Assembly: GCF_000308275.2 (NCBI RefSeq)
Contig: NZ_HG529492.1
Coordinates: 1 to 64,000, forward strand
From: Levyella massiliensis
GTDB taxonomy: Bacteria; Bacillota; Clostridia; Tissierellales; Peptoniphilaceae
Direction of reading: 5' to 3'
DNA length: 64,000 nucleotides
Part shown: positions 1 to 45,897 of the stretch, one piece after another
Layout of the letters: each line of letters starts with the position of its first letter
Position numbering within the stretch: position 1 is the first letter of the stretch
Position numbers and translations under genes: made by a program
Notes under the pieces: model-generated
What the model was told of the DNA's origin: nothing
Databases searched by the model: none
What the model saw: the letters and a program-made list of their open reading frames with translations, nothing else

Positions 1-293
1 ACCGTGCCTTTTGCAAAAAACAGCCAAAGGCACGGTCAGAAAGTGGACGCAGACGGCGTGTGCGACCGTGCCTTTTGAAAAAAACAGGCAAAGGCACGGT
101 CAAAACCGGAGCGAAGCAGTCGTCCCCGACCGTGCCTTTTGGAAAAAAGTGGCAAAGGCACGGTCGAAACCGGAGCAAATAGGTCATGTCCGACCGTGCC
201 TTTTACAAAAAATCATCAAAGGCACGGTCGAAATCGTAGCCCGCGGGTCGTCCCCGACCGTGCCTTTTGAAAAAATTGAGCAAAGGCACGGTC
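1..293 (-). repeat. Hairpin array 1, family 1 (5 units, cut by window edge)
   Basis: Five 38-bp palindromic units begin at 0 (its first base is outside the window), 64, 128, 192 and 256, exactly 64 bp apart. Each has arms GACCGTGCCTTT and AAAGGCACGGTC around a 14-nt loop that is A-rich on the plus strand. The other five family-1 arrays carry the T-rich loop on the plus strand, so this array is inverted relative to them. Spacers are 26 bp. The open frame across 11-304 is a by-product of the repeat. Its left end, and whatever gene lies beyond it, cannot be seen. Confidence 0.95.
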
Positions 294-15745: not shown

Positions 15746-16490
15746 GACCGTGCCTTTGACGCTTTTTTGCAAAAGGCACGGTCGGTTGTGCCGTCTGCCT
15801 CACGATTTTGACCGTGCCTTTGCCGCTTTTTTGTAAAAGGCACGGTCGGGAACGCCTGCTTCGCTGTGATTTTGACCGTGCCTTTGCCGCTTTTTTGCAA
15901 AAGGCACGGTCGGGGACGACTGCTTTGCTGTGGTTTCGACCGTGCTTTTGCTCATTTTTTGCAAAAGGCACGGTCGGGCACGACCTCTTTGCTCCGATTT
16001 TGACCGTGCCTTTGCCACGTTTTTTTGTCAAAAGGCACGGTCGCGCACGCCTGCTTCGCTCCGGTTTTGACCGTGCCTTTGACGTTTTTTTGCAAAAGGC
16101 ACGGTCGGGCACGCCTGCTTCGCTGTGATTTTGACCGTGCCTTTGACGTTTTTTTATAAAAGGCACGGTCGGGGACGACCTCTTCGCTCCGGTTTCGACC
16201 GTGCCTTTGACGTTTTTTTCCAAAAGGCACGGTCGGGGACGACCTCTTTGCTCCGGTTTTGACCGTGCCTTTGACGTTTTTTTATAAAAGGCACGGTCGT
16301 GCACAACCTCTTTGCTCCGATTTTGACCGTGCCTTTGCCACTTTTTTGCAAAAGGCACGGTCGGGGACGACCTCTTTGCTCCGGTTTTGACCGTGCCTTT
16401 GACGCTTTTTTGCAAAAGGCACGGTCGGGCACGACCTCTTTGCTCCGATTTTGACCGTGCCTTTGACGTTTTTTTGTAAAAGGCACGGTC
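15746..16490 (+). repeat. Hairpin array 2, family 1 (12 units)
   Basis: Twelve palindromic units start at 15746, 15810, 15874, 15938, 16002, 16069, 16133, 16197, 16261, 16325, 16389 and 16453. Spacing is 64 bp, apart from one 67-bp step caused by a loop three bases longer. The T-rich loop is on the plus strand. Spacers fall into a few types that recur within the array (for example GACGACCTCTTTGCTCCGG and CACGCCTGCTTCGCTGTGA). Lies between the pstS promoter and a tRNA-Val. The long minus-strand open frame across it (15492-16514) is not a gene. Confidence 0.95.
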
Positions 16491-18905: not shown

Positions 18906-18990
18906 AGGAGGCGCCCCGGCGGGGCGCCTTCCTTATTTACCAATCGTCGGCCGTCAGGCCGACTCCTTCCGGCGCCGAAGGCGCCTATTC
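18906..18990. repeat. Cluster of short GC-rich palindromes (third repeat type)
   Basis: Three palindromes lie in a row: GGCGCCCC/GGGGCGCC, GTCGGCC/GGCCGAC and GGCGCC/GGCGCC. They are joined by CCTTATTTACCAA- and CTCCTTC-like linkers, immediately before array 3. The middle palindrome with its flanks recurs identically at about 31283-31314. Confidence 0.75.
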
Positions 18991-19022: not shown

Positions 19023-19698
19023 GACCGTGCCTTTGACGCTTTTTTGCAAAAGGCACGGTCGCCTACACCCCACAACCTCCGATTTCGACCGTGCCTTTGT
19101 CGTTTTTTTGCAAAAGGCACGGTCGACTACACCCCTCAACCGCCGATTTTGACCGTGCCTTTGACCATTTTTTGCAAAAGGCACGGTCGGCTACACCCCA
19201 CAACCTCCGATTTCGACCGTGCCTTTGTCGCTTTTTTACAAAAGGCACGGTCGCCTGCGCCCTCTGCCTCGCAATTTCGACCGTGCCTTTGACGCTTTTT
19301 TGCAAAAGGCACGGTCGGCCACGCCCTTTGCCTCGCGATTTCGACCGTGCCTTTGACCATTTTTTGCAAAAGGCACGGTCGACTACACCCCACAACCCAC
19401 GGTTTCGACCGTGCCTTTGACGTTTTTTTCCAAAAAGCACGGTCGGCTACACCCCACAACCTCCAATTTCGACCGTGCCTTTGTCGCTTTTTTACAAAAG
19501 GCACGGTCGCCTGCGCCCTTTGCCTCGCGATTTCGACCGTGCCTTTGACGTTTTTTTCCAAAAGGCACGGTCGGCCGCGCCCCACAACCTCCGATTTCGA
19601 CCGTGCCTTTGACCATTTTTTGCAAAAGGCACGGTCGGCCATGCCATCTGTCCCGCATTTCTGACCGTGCCTCCGCCATTTTTCCTCAAAAGGCACGA
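19023..19698 (+). repeat. Hairpin array 3, family 1 (11 units)
   Basis: Units start at 19023, 19087, 19151, 19215, 19279, 19343, 19407, 19471, 19535, 19599 and 19663, with no deviation from 64 bp. The last unit is degenerate (GTGCCTCCGCC...). Two spacer types dominate, one with CTACACCCCACAACCTCCG and one with GCGCCCTTTGCCTCGCG, and they interleave. It lies between the convergent ends of apbE and purA. Confidence 0.95.
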
Positions 19699-19725
19699 CA
19701 TTCGTTATCGTGGGGGGCCAATTCG

Positions 19726-27534: not shown

Positions 27535-27957
27535 GACCGTGCCTTTGGCTCTTTTTTTGTAAAAGGCACGGTCGCTCACGACCCTCGCCCCCACTTTTCG
27601 ACCGTGCCTTTGGCTCTTTTCTGTAAAAGGCACGGTCGCGCAACCCGTCTGGGCGCACTTTCCGACCGTGCCTTTGCCGTTTTTTTGCGAAAGGCACGGT
27701 CGCGCACGCCCTCTGCCTCACAATTTTGACCGTGCCTTTGCCACTTTTTTGTAAAAGGCACGGTCGCTCACGACCCTCACCCCCACTTTCTGACCGTGCC
27801 TTTGCCCGTTTTTTGCGAAAGGCACGGCCGCTCAACCCACCTAAGCGCACTTTCTGACCGTGCCTTTGCCGCTTTTTTGCAAAAGGCACGGTCGCTCAAC
27901 CCACCTAGCCGCACTTTCTGACCGTGCCTTTGCCACTTTTTTGTAAAAGGCACGGTC
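27535..27957 (+). repeat. Hairpin array 4, family 1 (7 units)
   Basis: Units start at 27535, 27600, 27664, 27728, 27792, 27856 and 27920. The period is 64 bp with one 65-bp step. The T-rich loop is on the plus strand. The array ends 31 bp before the stop codon of the nuclease-like gene at 27989, so it is directly 3' of that gene. Confidence 0.95.
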
Positions 27958-27988
27958 GCGCACGACCCTCATGCCCATCGCATTCTTC

Positions 27989-28810
27989 TCAATATCGATA
28001 GGCAGTGCTTAAATAGCGCTGTAGGTAGGCATCGACAAGTTCAAAGCTCAAGGGAAAGGTGCCGGATTCAAAAGTGACAATTAAATTTTGTCCGAGGACC
28101 AAGCCGTTTTTTTGATAATAGGTTAGCTTTTTGAGAGTCGCATCGCTATAGGTGGGGTCATCCATCATGCCGCAATGTTCCCAATAGATTTCCATGTCGT
28201 TGGTGGCATCATAAAAAGTAAAGTCAGGATAGAAGGTCTGATTGTCTAGGTGTAGCGGGCACTCGTATTTGTAAGCAATGTGGTGGTCGTGAAAAATATC
28301 TGCTAGGATTTTCTCGCTTTTGGAGCGCACCCTTTCGCCGTGCTTTGTGGGAAATATCTTGTTTTCTGCGTGGTAATCCAGGGGCTCAGGGGTGAGCTGG
28401 AGCCACTGGTCCAGCTTTTGATTTTGCGTCGGTGCTAAGGGGGTTGCCAATAGTTTTCGCGACGGCTTTAAGTTTTCATAAATAGCATCAATGCTTTGAT
28501 CGCTGGTGCCATGTAAGAATCTTTTTATCTTCGTCATGCGAAAGGTCAAGAGTTTCAACATTTTCTTGTTGTAGGATTGCTGCGCTAATTGTTTAATCCG
28601 ATCGATATTGGATTGGTCTAAATAAATTCTGCTTTCTCGGGCCTTACCTGCCTCGGCACCACGATGATAATACTGTGGTCTTCCATGGCGATCGTCAATT
28701 TCCAAATAGCCTTGCATCGTCTGTGTGTCGTTAAGAACGTTGATGCATCGTTCGTATTTTTGGGCCACCTCCTGCAGCGTGTGTACCAATTGCTCCCATT
28801 CGTCAAACAT
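27989..28810 (-). CDS. Predicted PD-(D/E)XK nuclease-like protein, copy A
   Basis: 273 residues, no named family recognised. The N-terminal half is helical, with GYLEIDDRHGRPQYYHRG and a basic region. The C-terminal half has RSKSEKILADIF, YKYECPL, FYPDFTFYD, MEIYWEHCGMMDDP and LIVTFES. The order Glu, Pro-Asp, Glu-x-Trp on alternating strands fits a PD-(D/E)XK nuclease core, which I infer. Strong paralogue of the gene at 32015 along its whole length. GGAGGGACTGGCG precedes the ATG. A hairpin array of family 1 lies immediately downstream, and a 33-bp element upstream is shared with the paralogue. It may act on DNA hairpins, but nothing shows this directly. Confidence 0.75.
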   Translation of the reverse strand: MFDEWEQLVHTLQEVAQKYERCINVLNDTQTMQGYLEIDDRHGRPQYYHRGAEAGKARESRIYLDQSNIDRIKQLAQQSYNKKMLKLLTFRMTKIKRFLHGTSDQSIDAIYENLKPSRKLLATPLAPTQNQKLDQWLQLTPEPLDYHAENKIFPTKHGERVRSKSEKILADIFHDHHIAYKYECPLHLDNQTFYPDFTFYDATNDMEIYWEHCGMMDDPTYSDATLKKLTYYQKNGLVLGQNLIVTFESGTFPLSFELVDAYLQRYLSTAYRY

Positions 28811-28865
28811 CGCCAGTCCCTCCCTCTCATGGCATCGCTAATGCAACGCTTCAACATCTGGCTCC

Positions 28866-28898
28866 ATTATTTCAAATTTAATGTCTCATGGCGTCCCA
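28866..28898 (-). promoter_or_regulatory. Conserved element upstream of nuclease-like gene A
   Basis: 33 bp that match 24 of 33 positions in the element at 32897-32929, at almost the same distance from the start codon (56 versus 58 bp). On the plus strand the shared blocks are ATTATT, CAAA, TCTCA and GCGT. Probably the common promoter or leader. Confidence 0.5.
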
Positions 28899-28929
28899 AT
28901 ATGCGGGGCTTTTCGGGAGGAAAGGTGTC

Positions 28930-29796
28930 TTACAGTTCCCGCCAAGCGCGCGGGCGATACCACTGGGCGGCGCGGGCTTCGTCGATCTGGCGGAGCATGT
29001 CGGCGCGATCGCGGTTGAAGGTGCCGGCAACGGGAACGGGGTTTGAGGCGTGATTGGAACGGAAGACGGTGCCATCGCTATCTACCTGTTCGATAAAATG
29101 CTGCATTTCGTTGAGGATTTCTTCGTCGGAGAGAAGGTTGAAGCGGCCGGCTTTGACGTCGTCATAGAGGGGCGCGCCGGGGCTGAGATGCAAGCTCAAA
29201 AAGGAAACGTAGGCGGGCTTGGAGCGCGTGATCGCACGAGCGCTCTCGCGAATGTGAAGGTCGCTGTCGGCTTGTTCGCCGAGGCCGAAAATCAGCGTGA
29301 CGGACGAGGCGAGGCCGTTGCGTTTGGCTTTGAGCACAGCCGCCACGTATTCGTCCTGCGTTTGGTGCTTATCGATGCGACGCAGAATCTCATCGGAGCC
29401 GCTTTCGAGGCCGATATAGAGTAGTGAAAGACCGGCCGCGCGCAGGGCTTGCAGGTCGGCATCGCTCTTACGCAAAATATCATCGACGGTGGCATAGGCG
29501 CTGAGGCGCTCTAGGACAGGAAAGTTCTGATGGGCGCGTTCCATGATTTCCAACAGGCGATCCGTCGGCATGACCAGAGCATCGCCATCGGCAAGGAAGA
29601 CACGACGCACCCCCGGATAGGCGGCGCCTACGGCATCGATGTCAGCCAAAATGTCGGCCTGGGGACGCATGAAAAAATTCTTCTCTTTATACATCGAGCA
29701 AAAACGGCACGTATTGTGGGCACAGCCCACGGTGCATTGCAAAATAAACGATGAGGCCTCGGAAGGCGGTCGATACACATCTCCGATATATTGCAT
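28930..29796 (-). CDS. Radical SAM protein
   Basis: 288 residues. The cluster motif has the form GCAHNTCRFCSMY (Cys-x4-Cys-x2-Cys), used by a group of uncharacterised radical SAM proteins. LADGD, IGLESGSDEILRRIDK and VTLIFGLGEQ are barrel motifs typical of Elp3/HemN-like members. It should bind a 4Fe-4S cluster and S-adenosylmethionine; the substrate is unknown. AAAGGAGAATTTC precedes the ATG. It lies 27 nt downstream of the MFS permease gene on the same strand, so the two are probably cotranscribed. Confidence 0.85.
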   Translation of the reverse strand: MQYIGDVYRPPSEASSFILQCTVGCAHNTCRFCSMYKEKNFFMRPQADILADIDAVGAAYPGVRRVFLADGDALVMPTDRLLEIMERAHQNFPVLERLSAYATVDDILRKSDADLQALRAAGLSLLYIGLESGSDEILRRIDKHQTQDEYVAAVLKAKRNGLASSVTLIFGLGEQADSDLHIRESARAITRSKPAYVSFLSLHLSPGAPLYDDVKAGRFNLLSDEEILNEMQHFIEQVDSDGTVFRSNHASNPVPVAGTFNRDRADMLRQIDEARAAQWYRPRAWREL

Positions 29797-29823
29797 GAAA
29801 TTCTCCTTTCTGGCGATGCTTTT

Positions 29824-31116
29824 TCAGTCTTTCGTAGAGCGTTGCAGCAACAGCTGATGCATAGTGAACATAATACCCAACAAAAGCAGGGCATAAAAGG
29901 GCAAAAGCGCTACGGAATAGCAACGTGCGAGAACGCCGAATAAGGGGGGCAAAAAGCAGGAGCCGACGTAGGCGCTGGCCATCTGCACGCCGATCATTGC
30001 TTGCGAGCGGGCGGCGCCAAAGCGGGCGGGCGTGGAATGGATGATGCCGGGATAGATGGGCGCGCAGCCGAGTCCCAGCAGTAAGAAGCCGAATTGGGTC
30101 AGCAGAAGCAAGAAAGGCGAAGAGCCGCCGCTGCAGGTGCCGCAAAGCATCGCTACAAAAAGGCAGAATAGGCCCATGGCCACAATGCCCTGGCCCAAAC
30201 GAATCATGCGGTCGTCATCCCATTTTTGAGCCAAAAAGCCGGAAAGCGCGCGGCCGCCGGTGATGCCGACGTAAAACAGCGCCGCGCGGCCGGCAGCGGT
30301 TTTGGCGTCCATGCCGGCAAAAAGGGACAAATAGCTCGAGGCCCAGAGGCCGATGGTGGCTTCAAGGGCGCTGTAGCAGAAAAAGCAGAGGAAGATTTCT
30401 TTGGCGCCGGGCAGTGCGAAAATTTGTTTTAGCGATAGTGGGGCCGGCGTGACGGTGGAGGGGGCGTGCTCGGTGGCCGAGGTGGCTGCGGTTATGGCGC
30501 GCTCGGTGGCCAAGGCGGCGTCTGCGGTTGCGACGTGCTCGGCTGACGCAGCCGCCGTCTCCTCCATTGCTGCCTTTTTCCATAAGGGCAAACGGAAAAA
30601 CAAGATTGCCGTGAGGGCAAATTGCACTCCCGCAACCAAGCGATAGCCGGCGGGCCAGCCCAGTCCGTGCGTAAGGCACATTCCCATCAGCATGGGACCT
30701 AGTGCCGCGCCGATACCCCACATGCAATGCAGCCAGTTCATGTGCTGACTTTTATAATGCAATGCCACATAATTGTTGAGCGCCGCGTCCACGCTGCCCG
30801 CACCGAGACCGTAGGGAAGTGCCCACAGGCAGAGTGCTAAAAATGACCGCGAGAAGGAAAAACCCAAAAGTGCAACCGCCGTGAGTAAGACGCTACTGAA
30901 CGTGATGCGCCCGGTGCCGTAGCGACGATTGAGGCGGTCGCTTTGCAGGCTGGAGAATATGGTGCCGCCGGAGATGATCATGGAGATGATGCCGGCATAG
31001 GACAGTGGTACGTCAAGCGACAAATAAAGCGTCGGCCAGGCGGCGCCAAGCAGGGCGTCCGGCAAGCCAAGGCTGATAAAGGACAAATAGATGATGGGCA
31101 GCAGCAAGGATAGCAT
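29824..31116 (-). CDS. MFS transporter
   Basis: About 430 residues with twelve predicted membrane segments. DRLNRRYGTGR is the loop 2-3 MFS motif, and GLGAGSVDAALNNYVA resembles fucose/sugar-type MFS members. An Ala/Thr/Glu-rich cytoplasmic loop (about residues 190-235) links the halves. The open frame extends to 31401, but the upstream part is low-complexity Arg/Pro/Ala/His from GC-rich DNA. MLSLLLPII at 31116, with AGAGAGG before it, is the likely start. Substrate unknown. Confidence 0.87.
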   Translation of the reverse strand: MLSLLLPIIYLSFISLGLPDALLGAAWPTLYLSLDVPLSYAGIISMIISGGTIFSSLQSDRLNRRYGTGRITFSSVLLTAVALLGFSFSRSFLALCLWALPYGLGAGSVDAALNNYVALHYKSQHMNWLHCMWGIGAALGPMLMGMCLTHGLGWPAGYRLVAGVQFALTAILFFRLPLWKKAAMEETAAASAEHVATADAALATERAITAATSATEHAPSTVTPAPLSLKQIFALPGAKEIFLCFFCYSALEATIGLWASSYLSLFAGMDAKTAAGRAALFYVGITGGRALSGFLAQKWDDDRMIRLGQGIVAMGLFCLFVAMLCGTCSGGSSPFLLLLTQFGFLLLGLGCAPIYPGIIHSTPARFGAARSQAMIGVQMASAYVGSCFLPPLFGVLARCYSVALLPFYALLLLGIMFTMHQLLLQRSTKD

Positions 31117-31402
31117 GAAAACCTCTCTTTCGAGCGATGCCGGGGTGCGGCGCGGCGGTGCGGGGCGGCGGTGCGGGGCGACGGGGCGGAGCGGCGAGGC
31201 TGTGCGGCGGTGCGGCGCGGCGGGGCTGTGCGACGGAGCAGCGATGGCTCGGCCGACAAGGCCGCAAACCGTTTCCTTATTATACCAATCGTCGGCCGTC
31301 AGGCCGACTCCTTCTGTTGCTGGCTGGTTGAAACGCCACGATTTGGATGCTGCCGGTTGGTGCGTCTTTTTATGCTTCCCGGAAGCATGCCCCCCCCTCA
31401 CA
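31117..31402. other. GC-rich low-complexity region and shared palindrome
   Basis: About 31137-31255 is made of GGTGCGGGGCGGC-type words. About 31283-31314 repeats, base for base over some 30 bp, the palindrome GTCGGCC/GGCCGAC with flanks found at about 18936-18967. No gene seen. Confidence 0.65.
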
Positions 31403-31895
31403 TACCGTTGGTTTATCGGAATTCACGATTACCCACGGTATACCATAACGGCGCCGACAGCAATATGTACCGTCGGTAATGGCGTTTTTGGCATTACCAA
31501 CGGTAGGAAATGGCGTAGTAGGCGGCCGGATGTACCGTGGGTAATGCCGTTTTTGCCATTACCAACGGTAGGAAATGGCGTAGTAGGCGGCCGGATGTAC
31601 CGTGGGTTTTGCCGTTTTTGCCGTTACCAACGGTAGAAAATCGCACATTGGACCGCCGGATGTACCGTGGGTAATGCCGTTTTTGCCATTACCAACGGTA
31701 GAAAACTGCGCATCAGGCCCCAACGCCTACCGTGGGTTTTGCCGTTTTTGCCATTACCAACGGTAGAAAATGGCGTAGCAGGCCGCCGGATGTACCGTGG
31801 GTTTTGCCGTTTTTGCCATTACCAACGGTAGAAAACCGCGCATCAGGCCCCAACGCCTACCGTAGGTAATGCCGTTTTTGCCGTTACCAACGGTA
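31403..31895 (+). repeat. Hairpin array, family 2 (8 units, 65-bp period)
   Basis: Units of 38 bp start at 31403 (degenerate), 31468, 31533, 31598, 31663, 31728, 31793 and 31858, exactly 65 bp apart. Arms are TACCGTGGGTAATG and CATTACCAACGGTA (one internal mismatch) around a ~10-nt loop with GTTTTT on the plus strand. In some units the arm reads GGGTTTT, which weakens pairing. Two spacer types recur (GGCGTAGTAGGCGGCCGGATG-like and GCGCATCAGGCCCCAACGCC-like). The arms differ from family 1, but unit length, near-equal period and T-loop position are the same. It ends 119 bp before the stop of the nuclease-like gene B. Confidence 0.93.
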
Positions 31896-32014
31896 TAGCG
31901 CATCGCCGAGGCGGAGCCCATGCGCCGCGCATGCCTCGCCCATTGCCGGCCCACGCCTCGCCCGTGCCTCGCCCATTGCCCGTCCACGCCTCGCGCATCG
32001 CCCCCCCCCTTTTA
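31896..32014. repeat. Degenerate C-rich direct repeats
   Basis: Imperfect repeats of CATGCCTCGCCCATTGCC-type words lie between the family-2 array and nuclease-like gene B, ending in a run of eight or nine C. Confidence 0.6.
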
Positions 32015-32839
32015 TCAGCATAAAGAAGAATACTGTAAATGGACATTGACAAGGGTCTCGGCTTCATCGAAGTCCAAGGGGCATGTGGCGGATTCGAAGG
32101 TAACGATCAGGTTTTTGCCCATGATAATACCATGCGTATTGTAGTAGCGGATCTTTTTTAAGGCGTTTTCCAGGTAGGCGGCATCTCCCATCATCCCGAA
32201 ATGCTCCCAGTACAGCTCGATTTCATGGTAGGCGTCAAAAAAGGTGAAATCCGGATGAAAAACGCGTGATTCAATGTATAAAGGCGCTTCATATTTATAA
32301 GCGATGTTCTTGTCGTAAAATAAATCCGCTAAAATTTTTTCGCTTTTAGAGCGCACCATTTCACCATGTTTGGTACGAAACGTGGTGGCGTCCGATGCAA
32401 AGTGAAATGGTTCATAAGGTTGTTCCAACCATTGTTGTAATTTTTGTGTTCTCGTCAATGCAATCGGCTTCACTAGGGCCTTTCTCGAGGGTTTCATGCG
32501 TTCATAAATGGCATCAATTTCATTGTCACAAAAATCTTGATGGATCGCTTGCCATTGTTTCAATCGCTTGCGCAAAAGGATTTTCACTCTTTTCTCATAG
32601 GTTTGCTGTGCCAGGCGATGCGCAAAGTCCAGTTGATTTTTTCCCAGATATCTGCGATGCTCTTGATTCGTCTCTTGATTCCACCAATGATGATAATATT
32701 GTGGCGGTTGATAGCGATCATCAATTTCCAAATAGCCATGACTCTTGTGTTGCGATACCTTTAATTTTTGTAACAGCTTCTGGTACTTTTCCAGCCATGC
32801 TTTCAATATTTCCTGCATCTCCATCATTTCTGTTTCCAT
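32015..32839 (-). CDS. Predicted PD-(D/E)XK nuclease-like protein, copy B
   Basis: 274 residues from ATG at 32839, which has AGGAAGGGG before it (the frame is open to 33022, but that extension has no homology to copy A). Colinear with copy A: GYLEIDDRY, EIDAIYERMKPSRKAL, TKHGEMVRSKSEKILADL, YKYEAPL, FHPDFTFFD, IELYWEHFGMMGD and NLIVTFES. Roughly half the residues are shared by eye. The conserved Glu, Pro-Asp and Glu-x-Trp again suggest a PD-(D/E)XK core (inference). The family-2 hairpin array is directly downstream, in the same relative orientation as array 4 to copy A. Confidence 0.75.
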   Translation of the reverse strand: METEMMEMQEILKAWLEKYQKLLQKLKVSQHKSHGYLEIDDRYQPPQYYHHWWNQETNQEHRRYLGKNQLDFAHRLAQQTYEKRVKILLRKRLKQWQAIHQDFCDNEIDAIYERMKPSRKALVKPIALTRTQKLQQWLEQPYEPFHFASDATTFRTKHGEMVRSKSEKILADLFYDKNIAYKYEAPLYIESRVFHPDFTFFDAYHEIELYWEHFGMMGDAAYLENALKKIRYYNTHGIIMGKNLIVTFESATCPLDFDEAETLVNVHLQYSSLC

Positions 32840-32896
32840 AGGCGACCCCTTCCTCTCGAATAAAAATGGTGCATCGTTATTCCCTCTTCCGTATCT

Positions 32897-32929
32897 ATTA
32901 TTCCAAAGGTGAAATCTCAGTGCGTTCCA
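32897..32929 (-). promoter_or_regulatory. Conserved element upstream of nuclease-like gene B
   Basis: Counterpart of 28866-28898 (24 of 33 positions identical), 58 bp before the start codon. Confidence 0.5.
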
Positions 32930-38699: not shown

Positions 38700-38880
38700 C
38701 GGTGGTTCGGTGATGGTGCGGTGGTGATTTGATGCAGATGTCGCGCTGCTTTGGTGCCGATGTAGTGGCGGTGGTGGTGCGGCGGTGATTTTATGCCGAT
38801 GTCGCGCTGCTTTGGTGCCGATGTAGTGGCGGCGGTGGTGCGGCGGTGATTTGATGCCGATGTCTCACTGGTTTGGTACG
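38700..38880. repeat. 61-bp tandem repeat, about 2.6 copies
   Basis: GTGATTT-ATGCCGATGTCGCGCTGCTTTGGTGCCGATGTAGTGGCGG-type units recur at 38724, 38785 and 38846 (61 bp apart). The sequence is G-rich on the plus strand and no gene is supported. The stretch 38881-39270 that follows is low-complexity GGCGGGG/TTTTCGG-type DNA. Confidence 0.75.
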
Positions 38881-39270
38881 TTTTTTAGTACCATTTTGGT
38901 GCTATTTATAGTACCATCGTCTCTTGTCCAAGTCAAATCATTAAGGCAAAAAAATGCGCAGAAAAGGATGTTCTGCGCAAGGCGCCTTGCGCATGATGGT
39001 CGCAGCGAGATGCTTAGCCACACAGACGGCGTCGCGGGATGGCTGTATAGCGGGAGCGACGGTGTAGCATGCGGGATTTTGGCGGAGGTAAGGCGGATTT
39101 TCGGAGGGGTATGGCGGGGAGCATGGAAGGGGTATGGTGGGTTTTCGGTGCGAGTCACGGCTGGGAGCATGGCGAATTTTCGGCGGGGGCACGGCGGCGA
39201 GCATGACGAGTTTTCAGCGGCGATACGGCAGGATTTCGGGGAGTTTTCGGCGCATGACTTAAGAACGAAT

Positions 39271-39440: not shown

Positions 39441-40438
39441 GACCGTGCCTTTGGCATTTTTTTTGCAAAAGGCACGGTCGGCCGTGCCCTCTGCACTCCA
39501 ATTTCGACCGTGCCTTTGGCGTTTTTTTGCAAAAGGCACGGTCGGTTGCGCCCTCCGCGCCGCAATTTTGACCGTGCCTTTGACCATTTTTTGCAAAAGG
39601 CACGGTCGACCGCACCCCCTGCCCCGCAATTTTGACCGTGCCTTTGACCATTTTTTGCAAAAGGCACGGTCGACCGCACCCCCTGCCCCGCAATTTTGAC
39701 CGTGCCTTTGGCGTTTTTTTCCAAAAGGCACGGTCGGCAGCAACCCCTGCTCCACAATTTCGACCGTGCCTCTGGCGTTTTTTTCCAAAAGGCACGGTCG
39801 GCAGCAACCCCTGCTCCACAATTTCGACCGTGCCTCTGGCGTTTTTTTCCAAAAGGCACGGTCGGCCGCGACCCCTCCTACGCGATTTCGACCGTGCCTT
39901 TGGCGTTTTTTTGCAAAAGGCACGGTCGGCCACAACCCCTGCTCCACAATTTCGACCGTGCCTTTGGCGTTTTTTTGCAAAAGGCACGGTCGGCCACAAC
40001 CCCTGCTCCACAATTTCGACCGTGCCTTTGGCGTTTTTTTATAAAAGGCACGGTCGGTCGCGCCCTCTGCACTCCAATTTCGACCGTGCCTTTGGCGTTT
40101 TTTTGCAAAAGGCACGGTTGGTTGCGCACTCCGCCCCGCGATTTCGACCGTGCCTTTGACCATTTTTTGCAAAAGGCACGGTCGGATATGCCCTCCGCCC
40201 TGCGATTTCGACCGTGCTTTTGGCGTTTTTTTGAAAAAGGCACGGTCGGATATGCCCTCCGCCCTGCAATTTCGACCGTGCCTTCGGCGTTTTTTGCAAA
40301 AGGCACGGTCGGTAGCGCACTCCGCCCCGCCATTTCGACCGTGCCTTTAACGATTTTTTGCAAAAGGCACGGTCGGCCGCAACCCCTGCTCCGCAATTTC
40401 GACCGTGCCTTTGGCATTTTTTTGCAAAAGGCACGGTC
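39441..40438 (+). repeat. Hairpin array 5, family 1 (16 units, largest)
   Basis: Units start at 39441, 39506, 39570, 39634, 39698, 39762, 39826, 39890, 39954, 40018, 40082, 40146, 40210, 40274, 40337 and 40401. The period is 64 bp with one 65 and one 63. The T-rich loop is on the plus strand. Identical neighbouring units, such as 39762 and 39826, point to recent local duplication. Open frames up to 265 codons on both strands here are repeat by-products. Confidence 0.95.
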
Positions 40439-45429: not shown

Positions 45430-45836
45430 GGCCGTGCCGACTGGGCACGGTCGGCTACGCCGTCTGCCCCACGATTTCGACCGTGCCTTTCCCGATTTTT
45501 TGCAAAAGGCACGGTCGGTTGCACCGTCTGTGCCGCGATTTCGACCGTGCCTTTGACGTTTTTTTGCAAAAGGCACGGTCGTGCATGACCGCTGCCCCAC
45601 GTTTTCGACCGTGCCTTTGGCGATTTTTTGCGAAAGGCACGGTCGGTTGCGCCCGCTGCCCTGCGATTTCGACCGTGCCTTTGGCGATTTTTTGTAAAAG
45701 GCACGGTCGGTTGCGACCGCTGCCCTGCAATTTCGACCGTGCCTTTGACGATTTTTTGCGAAAGGCACGGTCGGTTACGCCCGCTGCTCTGCGTTTTCGA
45801 CCGTGCCTTTGCCGCTTTTTTGCAAAAGGCACGGTC
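45430..45836 (+). repeat. Hairpin array 6, family 1 (6 units plus a decayed one)
   Basis: Units start at 45479, 45543, 45607, 45671, 45735 and 45799, all 64 bp apart. A shortened remnant (GCCGTGCC...GGCACGGTCGG) lies at about 45430-45453. The T-rich loop is on the plus strand. The array lies 61 bp past the stop of the glycosylase-like gene. Confidence 0.95.
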
Positions 45837-45897
45837 GCGGAACTCCTCTAGGCATGGTCGCGCAACTCGGCTGTGCATACGACCGTGCTCTCTACCT

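Follow-up and report, generated by a model that had tools for sequence, protein, structure and literature searches.

A predicted nuclease family of Clostridia and its helically phased inverted repeats: a possible REP-RAYT-like partnership built on an unrelated enzyme

In Levyella massiliensis, two related genes for small nuclease-like proteins each lie beside an array of palindromic repeats, and the two arrays belong to different repeat families. This locus raises the question of whether a nuclease and a private population of repeats can form a genetic partnership comparable to that of repetitive extragenic palindromes (REPs) and REP-associated tyrosine transposases (RAYTs), with a different protein fold. 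The original prediction, made from the letters of the DNA, had proposed such a layout. We followed it up in the window, that is, the whole stretch of 64,000 nucleotides analysed (contig C3, NZ_HG529492.1, positions 1 to 64,000), in the complete assembly (G000; 1,713,902 bases in four contigs), in four sister species of the genus (G001 to G004), and in more distant relatives. We found that genes of this family commonly adjoin arrays of inverted half-sites, that the arrays are phased with the DNA helix, and that half-site and protein change together among close relatives. In what follows, the term array denotes copies of one half-site strung together in alternating orientation. The two modules comprise the following features:

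27536 to 27956, plus strand: family-1 array at gene 1, 14 half-sites with the core ACCGTGCCTTT, period 64 bp, T-rich inner loop on the plus strand
27989 to 28810, minus strand: gene 1 (product P0001, 273 amino acids), with a predicted N-terminal helical hairpin and three-stranded sheet (residues 1-102) and a predicted PD-(D/E)XK-type core (about 150-271)
28866 to 28898, minus strand: 33-bp element upstream of gene 1, common to gene 2 (24 of 33 positions), promoter-like
31403 to 31896, plus strand: family-2 array at gene 2, 16 half-sites (TACCGTnGGTaaTG), period 65 bp
32015 to 32839, minus strand: gene 2 (product P0002, 274 amino acids), paralogue of gene 1 (46%)
32897 to 32929, minus strand: 33-bp element upstream of gene 2, 24 of 33 positions identical to that of gene 1

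Both predicted reading frames were recovered, and their products share 46% identity across residues 7-266. Likewise, each gene does have an array directly 3' of it, family 1 at 32 bases and family 2 at about 119 bases, and in both arrays the T-run of the inner loop lies on the plus strand, opposite the genes, as had been claimed. The half-sites at gene 1 are spaced 25/39 bp, with a single spacing of 26. The shared upstream element also held up: the two copies end 55 and 57 bases ahead of the start codons, and 24 identical positions were reached in only 3 of 300 random 200-nucleotide windows. Its core pattern has three matches in the window where 0.33 are expected, one of which carries a mismatch and does not lie at a gene of the family. 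Six members of the family are encoded in this genome, the five others being 39-50% identical to P0001, and the five genus genomes contain 26 matches when fragments are counted.

The pairing of gene and array extends well beyond this locus. We examined the best 80 of 430 relatives from genome contigs, 12 of which are genus genes, with a detector that accepts half-spacings of 16-50 bp and hence periods of 32-100 bp. At least six alternating half-sites were found within 1 kb of the matched part on the 5' side in 47 of 77 loci and on the 3' side in 10 of 79, compared with 4 of 404 control segments taken 1-4 kb away (for the next three kilobases, 0/61, 2/61 and 0/61 on the 5' side and 0/76, 0/75 and 2/70 on the 3' side). 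Taking either side of the gene, 60 of the 80 loci have at least five half-sites and 53 have at least six; among intact genus genes, 17 of 21 have at least six within 1.4 kb. The expectation that homologues adjoin palindromic arrays beyond chance was thus borne out, and we regard the pairing as practically certain, common but not universal. The predicted layout stands in that an array beside the gene is typical; it does not stand as a rule of position, because arrays lie 5', 3' or on both sides (at least six on both sides in four of the 53 loci, L069, L089, L098 and L116, and also in L004, L005 and L195), and 27 of the 80 loci fall below six half-sites. Genes consisting of the nuclease domain alone had no array of at least six in six cases, two of them reaching five. 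The genome G256 has six genes of the family: four lie at arrays of AGaCGTAA, TACGTGA, TAGGCTAA and TTACCTGCA, a fifth adjoins a chain of six GGCATGCC half-sites, and the sixth has no array.

Does each protein have its own repeat? We compared motif and protein for 78 proteins, 60 of them with a usable array (at least five half-sites, or four in the case of L006), leaving out genus repeats (L043, L047, L051, L052, L055, L057, L060, L083, L085, L090, L092, L099), loci with internal stops (L065, L080, L095, L099, L102, L110) and proteins shorter than 250 amino acids. Mean motif similarity was 0.35-0.37 below 60% protein identity, 0.46 at 60-70%, 0.58 at 70-80% and 0.84 above 80%. In Mantel tests, the correlation over all pairs was reached in 0 of 500 permutations, and that below 60% identity in 19 of 300. 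The claim that protein phylogeny tracks repeat family is therefore sustained at close range, above about 60% identity, and the signal fades below it. In the protein tree, a clade of 15 rows has mostly TACGG/CCGTA-type motifs, a clade of 18 rows has a TGAC/GTCA-type motif in 8 of the 10 rows with an array, and five paralogues of L. massiliensis form one group with five different half-sites. Only this one of the five genus genomes has exact family-1 hairpins (115), and the same is true of exact hairpins of family 2 (71) and of the L002 family (9). The half-site of L006 is common to its orthologues in G001, G002 and G004; exact hairpins of it were found in G000, G001 and G004 and none in G002 or G003, with one chance match of the control pattern in G003. 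A different half-site in the G002 orthologue was considered and rejected, as its array retains seven copies of TTACGGGTCA and five variants.

The arrangement of the half-sites indicates what is recognised. In 60 arrays of at least five half-sites, median periods were 43.5-44, 51-55, 62-64 and 84 bp; with more loci added, 46 clusters of motif and period fell at 42-44, 51-55, 62-65, 74-75 and 84 bp, which are whole helical turns. For this set, 12 repeat loci and arrays of fewer than six half-sites were excluded and nine rows from draws at family and phylum level were added; L127, L130 and L142 were not, since they repeat loci or motifs already included. The resultant was 0.85 at 10.5 bp, the best modulus was 10.4 bp, and none of 20,000 smoothed resamples was as high, for a cluster number that is probably too large, as cores of four to five bases cannot cluster, and for clusters that share ancestry and are not fully independent. 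The 19 clusters outside 49-57 bp alone gave 0.87, again with 0 of 20,000. Within arrays, 519 of 529 spacings were within 1 bp of the mode of their own array, the other ten being off by 2, 9, 11 or 21 bp; at C2:207639, a family-2 array mixes periods of 54 and 65 bp. Proteins lined up along one side of the double helix would require such phasing.

Half-sites and spacing are also constrained. In nine family-1 arrays, half-sites (gathered with up to two mismatches of 11, in chains without empty positions) were 98% identical both within and between arrays, whereas outer spacers were 74% identical within arrays and 49.5% between them, and inner spacers 81% and 72%. Only 4 of 176 spacer lengths departed from the mode. 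Half-site and spacing are thus more strongly conserved than the sequence of the spacers. In an array common to G001, G002 and G004, between two genes of what we take to be a zinc-ATPase region, identical columns numbered 57 of 63 in half-sites and 139 of 226 in spacers (Fisher p 6e-6; three inserted columns). When half-site changes were compared with the partner arm, 42 were matched, 443 were unmatched and 11 had changed differently, alike for both dyads (locus L195 contributes two entries, one for each of two words). If selection acted on a stem, changes in its arms would be expected to match, and excerpts of PMC2817692 report that REP palindromes beside RAYT genes are indeed kept by complementary changes. 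Because a change in one arm seldom has a counterpart in the other, our data favour helically phased inverted half-sites in duplex DNA, rather than a hairpin, as the recognised target. In this respect the original prediction, which took the hairpin as the recognised entity, has to be revised. A reading of the arrays as RNA hairpins is likewise disfavoured by the unmatched arm changes (443 against 42) and by the helical phasing.

As for the enzyme, neither protein matched a family in Pfam or NCBIfam at E<=1, and a sequence search of the PDB returned no match for P0001. In PADLOC, the C-terminal parts matched PDC-S68 (E 2e-29 and 1.3e-26) and, more weakly, PD-DEXK models; the PDC-S68 matches are limited to the nuclease part and lie at the end of profiles about 1200 positions long. 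An AlphaFold2 model built on a 64-sequence alignment had a mean predicted local distance difference test score (pLDDT) of 93.5, with a helix at residues 2-27, three strands within 35-64, a long helix at 66-101 and then a mixed alpha/beta part. For residues 163-271 of the model, the top structural match was the catalytic domain of the homing endonuclease I-Bth0305I (3r3p_A; Z 8.7, root-mean-square deviation 2.9, 93 of 97 residues aligned), followed by Bax1 (Z 7.9 and 7.8) and TnsA (Z 7.4); the remaining high rows were coiled coils aligned to residues 1-102. Foldseek, run with the full model, returned weak restriction-fold matches among its first rows. Residues E166, D196, E211 and H212 were invariant in all 64 sequences. 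The predicted core thus agrees with the nuclease-like reading from which the follow-up started, and its fold and conserved acidic residues would place the protein in the PD-(D/E)XK, or restriction-endonuclease-like, class. The protein is probably an active nuclease. The N-terminal part, modelled alone with a pLDDT of 94.4, had as VIA matches only common helical hairpins such as prefoldin (Z 8.5 and below); we infer that this part reads DNA.

The two arrays beside genes are not the only ones in the window. Beyond the original prediction, we found five more family-1 arrays, none adjoining a gene of the family, so the gene-adjoining pair is part of a larger set:

1 to 292, minus strand: family-1 array without gene, 10 half-sites, T-rich loop on the minus strand; may extend past the window edge
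15747 to 16489, plus strand: family-1 array without gene, 24 half-sites; a copy on contig C1, 99.6% identical, has 26
19024 to 19699, plus strand: family-1 array without gene, 22 half-sites
39442 to 40437, plus strand: family-1 array without gene, 32 half-sites
45480 to 45835, plus strand: family-1 array without gene, 12 half-sites (14 with another detector, 45445 to 45877)

In the whole genome, family 1 has at least nine arrays; the nine examined (six in the window and three elsewhere) contain 185 half-sites spaced 25/39 bp. Of its 115 exact hairpins at least 105 were located, 26 of them in an end of contig C1 that nearly repeats the window. The 71 exact hairpins of family 2 occupy at least five places besides the window, the nine of the L002 family five places and the six of the L006 family three, and each of these four tested paralogues therefore has arrays away from its gene. 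Reversed control patterns for families 1 and 2 gave no match in any of the five genus genomes. As far as synteny extends, the window arrays fall between the genes that it places. We saw no relation between GC skew and array polarity, and Rfam reported nothing in the window besides two tRNAs. An identical GC-rich hairpin element of 32 bases occurs at 18938-18969 and 31283-31314, adjoining a family-1 array and the family-2 array; similar GC-rich hairpins separate arrays in the sister genomes and are possibly another repeat family that uses the same intergenic sites. The window also contains a tandem repeat unlike the arrays at 38708-38890 (61 bp, three copies at 72-93%).

Dispersal was also seen outside the genus. 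In 12 gene-carrying genomes, an AACCGTA pair pattern had 75 matches, with at least one in 11 genomes, and a control pattern had four. Some of these matches belong to the gene's own array; others do not, and in G100, G102 and G105 these occupy several places. All 18 stretches around AACCGTA matches proved to be clusters of 4 to 23 half-sites, two of them (L167, L179) on the gene's own contig; since the stretches were picked by their matches, this says that the matches are arrays and not how frequent arrays are.

Comparisons with the sister species give some indications of the history of the modules. Gene 1 and family 1 lie between what we take to be dnaX and a radical S-adenosylmethionine gene; this interval has other array families and no such gene in G001, G002 and G004, and is a short gap without arrays in G003. 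The gene-2 module, between a putative major facilitator superfamily gene and a putative ldh, is absent from G001, G002 and G004. In L004 and L005, direct repeats of array sequence flank the gene (300 nucleotides at 94% and 249 at 91%, respectively). The end of contig C1 (G000 C1:1070900-1098277) matches window positions 1-27317 at 99.6%; the match is either a genuine duplication or variants that overlap in the assembly, and it double-counts arrays. One family-1 array has 24 half-sites in the window and 26 in the C1 copy, between flanks identical at 300 of 300 bases on either side; if a 3-bp irregularity on the window side is disregarded, the two copies differ by one 64-bp unit. Unless this difference is an assembly artefact, array length changes in whole units.

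Members of the family come from anaerobes that live in the gut and at other body sites; their distribution is patchy, with fragments and internal stops. Within the taxonomic family, 15 of 100 genomes carried a member, one of them as the nuclease domain alone; in the phylum, 10 of 398 genomes did at E<=1e-20, five of these with the full-length protein. Broken gene copies include L036/L040 (G004 C1:632459-633249) and two in G044 (C1:714029-714789 and 957131-957915); in G004 an array of 16 half-sites persists beside a broken copy, and sister genomes retain arrays of the same motif. A viral or plasmid origin was considered and rejected. Among 74 candidate stretches from viral contigs there was one weak relative, and none of eight plasmid records spanned 80% of the query (seven are annotated as AAA ATPase or helicase and one is unannotated). 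Of three phage records, one (H9, MT839528.1:383-1120) covers 94% of P0001 at 31% identity; it is an unannotated 4.2-kb faecal contig labelled as phage and may be bacterial DNA. No common partner gene emerged among 651 open reading frames (ORFs) near 75 of the 80 loci. The commonest neighbours are presumably rplM-like (14 loci) and rpsI-like (8 loci), which reflects a common position. The gene stands just after the rpsI-like ORF in L046, L049, L066, L088, L093, L096, L104 and L120, and the array motif at this rpsI/rplM position differs between loci (for example, L088 and L093), that is, one position with a changing code.

Altogether, the association, the close-range tracking of motif by protein and the predicted nuclease core support a REP/RAYT-like layout on a different fold, as originally proposed. 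Neither of the two outcomes that the original prediction had named as refuting it was observed. The explanation that we prefer, with a rough probability of 0.5, is a two-part partnership in which dimers of the nuclease bind inverted half-sites, and rare cutting followed by repair keeps the arrays uniform and spreads them. That the half-sites are specifically recognised by the protein is very probable. The N-terminal part would read the half-site in duplex DNA, two protomers would occupy one inverted pair (unit length about 53 or 64 bp), and adjacent dimers would align along the same side of the helix. The nuclease domain might then nick or cut inside arrays under restricted conditions only, and repair from neighbouring units or other arrays could leave half-sites uniform, shift array length by whole units and occasionally seed new arrays. 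Binding, cutting and spread of this kind would let gene and sites sustain each other. Provided that the earlier steps hold, upkeep and spread driven by the nuclease is the somewhat likelier outcome. In its broadest form, for which we would give a little less than even odds, the proposal is that the REP-RAYT lifestyle arose a second time, independently: a homing-endonuclease-like family of Clostridia would maintain and spread private phased arrays, each duplicated enzyme moving to a new half-site, with several non-overlapping pairs per genome.

Several observations weigh against this partnership. The pairing has exceptions, namely the 27 loci with fewer than six half-sites, and in further draws at least six were found in 6 of 9 full-length loci at phylum level and in 6 of 16 loci at family level, or 4 of 12 new loci once L127, L132, L134 and L142, which repeat loci of the 80, are set aside. 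The motif correlation loses significance for protein pairs under 50% identity (122 of 300 permutations), and among the 78 proteins no region tracks the motif clearly better than others. The structural match at Z 8.7 barely exceeds the 7 to 8 typical of unrelated models, and Foldseek returned no PDB match at E<=0.001 for the full or the N-terminal model. The whole-unit change from 24 to 26 half-sites could be an assembly artefact, and no insertion with target duplication was caught among the loci compared. Many Lachnospiraceae loci hold the gene at one position beside a putative ribosomal-protein operon, unlike a restless element. Finally, with a constitutively active enzyme, the genome that encodes it would be cut at every array, so cutting must be restricted or absent; the restriction could lie in nicking, in single strands or in rare expression, or the protein may mainly bind.

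A protein that mainly binds leads to the best rival, host chromosome organisation, in which phased arrays would be bound or bridged to organise the chromosome or insulate transcription, nuclease activity would be rare or serve repair, and spread would follow from usefulness. The constrained half-sites and spacing, the dispersed arrays, the common gene position in Lachnospiraceae and the retained catalytic residues all fit this idea. Nevertheless, we consider it unlikely, given the patchy presence (15 of 100 family genomes; 5 of 398 in the phylum at full length) and the several matches per genome, fragments and internal stops included; several half-site sets per genome are hard to fit to one host function. 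Defence and self-regulation are weaker, because half-sites differ between paralogues, arrays are dispersed and some are 3' of the gene. For defence, in which the nuclease would attack invading DNA and the arrays would be storage, sensing or self-marking sites, the relation of the nuclease domain to the candidate phage-defence PDC-S68 (E 2e-29) and the patchy distribution can be cited. Its chances are nonetheless small: the PADLOC matches span only the nuclease part at the end of long profiles, the 651 neighbouring ORFs revealed no common partner, and half-sites that differ between paralogues of one genome are ill-suited to recognising foreign DNA. That the array is simply the operator of its own gene would account for arrays being commoner 5' (47/77) than 3' (10/79), but is improbable in view of the gene-less array of up to 34 half-sites in L186, the 3' position of both window arrays and the distance from the gene of most family-1 and family-2 arrays seen. 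More improbable still is a type III toxin-antitoxin-like system, in which transcripts of the array would form repeat RNA hairpins that either inhibit the protein or are processed by it. A repeat array does adjoin a small nuclease gene, as in toxIN, but arm changes are mostly unmatched (42 matched, 443 unmatched, 11 different), periods follow the DNA helix, and no Rfam match besides the two tRNAs occurs in the window.

The enzymes linked to REP-type repeats have been HuH transposases. If a second, unrelated enzyme has the same layout, the combination of an enzyme and a private palindrome population would be a recurring genetic partnership. The DNA code is unusually clean, with 46 clusters reporting whole helical turns and five paralogues with five half-sites in one genome. 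These matched small proteins and half-sites from gut bacteria are a ready natural set. They make it testable how a DNA-binding enzyme and its many dispersed sites shift specificity together, and what holds tandem palindromes uniform in bacteria.

How does the system compare with those already described? In type III toxin-antitoxin systems such as toxIN, a repeat RNA antitoxin is encoded 5' of an endoribonuclease gene, and the repeats are direct RNA repeats. The adjacency of a repeat array and a small nuclease gene is similar. However, the present half-sites are alternating, helically phased and dispersed in DNA, both window arrays are 3' of their genes and arm changes are unmatched. With PDC-S68, the family shares a related C-terminal nuclease domain (E 2e-29), but PDC-S68 profiles span about 1200 positions, and none of the six nuclease-domain-only genes had an array of at least six half-sites nearby. 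I-Bth0305I, which excerpts of PMC3943268 report to dimerise on a target of nearly 60 bp, is the first structural match of the nuclease domain (Z 8.7, 93/97). As with a homing endonuclease gene, the gene can be bracketed by stretches of its own array (L004, L005), and this, together with the empty position in three species, would fit homing, where cutting of the target lets a gene copy itself into an allele without it; no transfer was seen. Unlike I-Bth0305I, there is no intron or phage context to be seen, no similar N-terminal region was found, and the target is a many-copy array left intact in the genome; the family motif reads PD..EH, and the likeness to the EDxHD enzyme I-Bth0305I comes from the structure match.

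The closest parallel is with REPs, their bacterial interspersed mosaic elements (BIMEs) and RAYTs. As described in the excerpts of PMC2817692 and PMC8266576 on which we draw, those repeats are palindromic, regularly spaced, alternating in orientation and mostly intergenic, and the enzyme gene stands beside its own repeat family while repeats occur elsewhere without a gene. The RAYT gene is flanked by two inverted REPs of its own family (PMC2817692), and RAYT, or TnpA-REP, has a HuH motif and a catalytic tyrosine (PMC8266576), according to the same excerpts. The present arrays share the regular spacing, alternating orientation, intergenic location and many copies of BIMEs, with 185 half-sites in nine arrays for family 1 and 71 exact hairpins for family 2. 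They differ from REPs in having half-sites of 7-13 bp with variable spacers, changes that are rarely matched in the other arm (443 one-arm changes, 42 matched and 11 different) and periods locked to helical turns. Where RAYTs have a HuH/tyrosine core, this family has a predicted PD-(D/E)XK-type core with invariant E166, D196, E211 and H212, and no Pfam family at E<=1. In the open-licence literature (PMC) we found no earlier description of such a pairing of nuclease and array, subscription papers and bioRxiv being little covered by that search. The array architecture is BIME-like, and the enzyme and the helical phasing are new. We set the system apart as new because its enzyme does not pass the HuH test that defines RAYTs and no named family covers it; giving more weight to the BIME-like arrays, it could count as a variant of REP-type systems.

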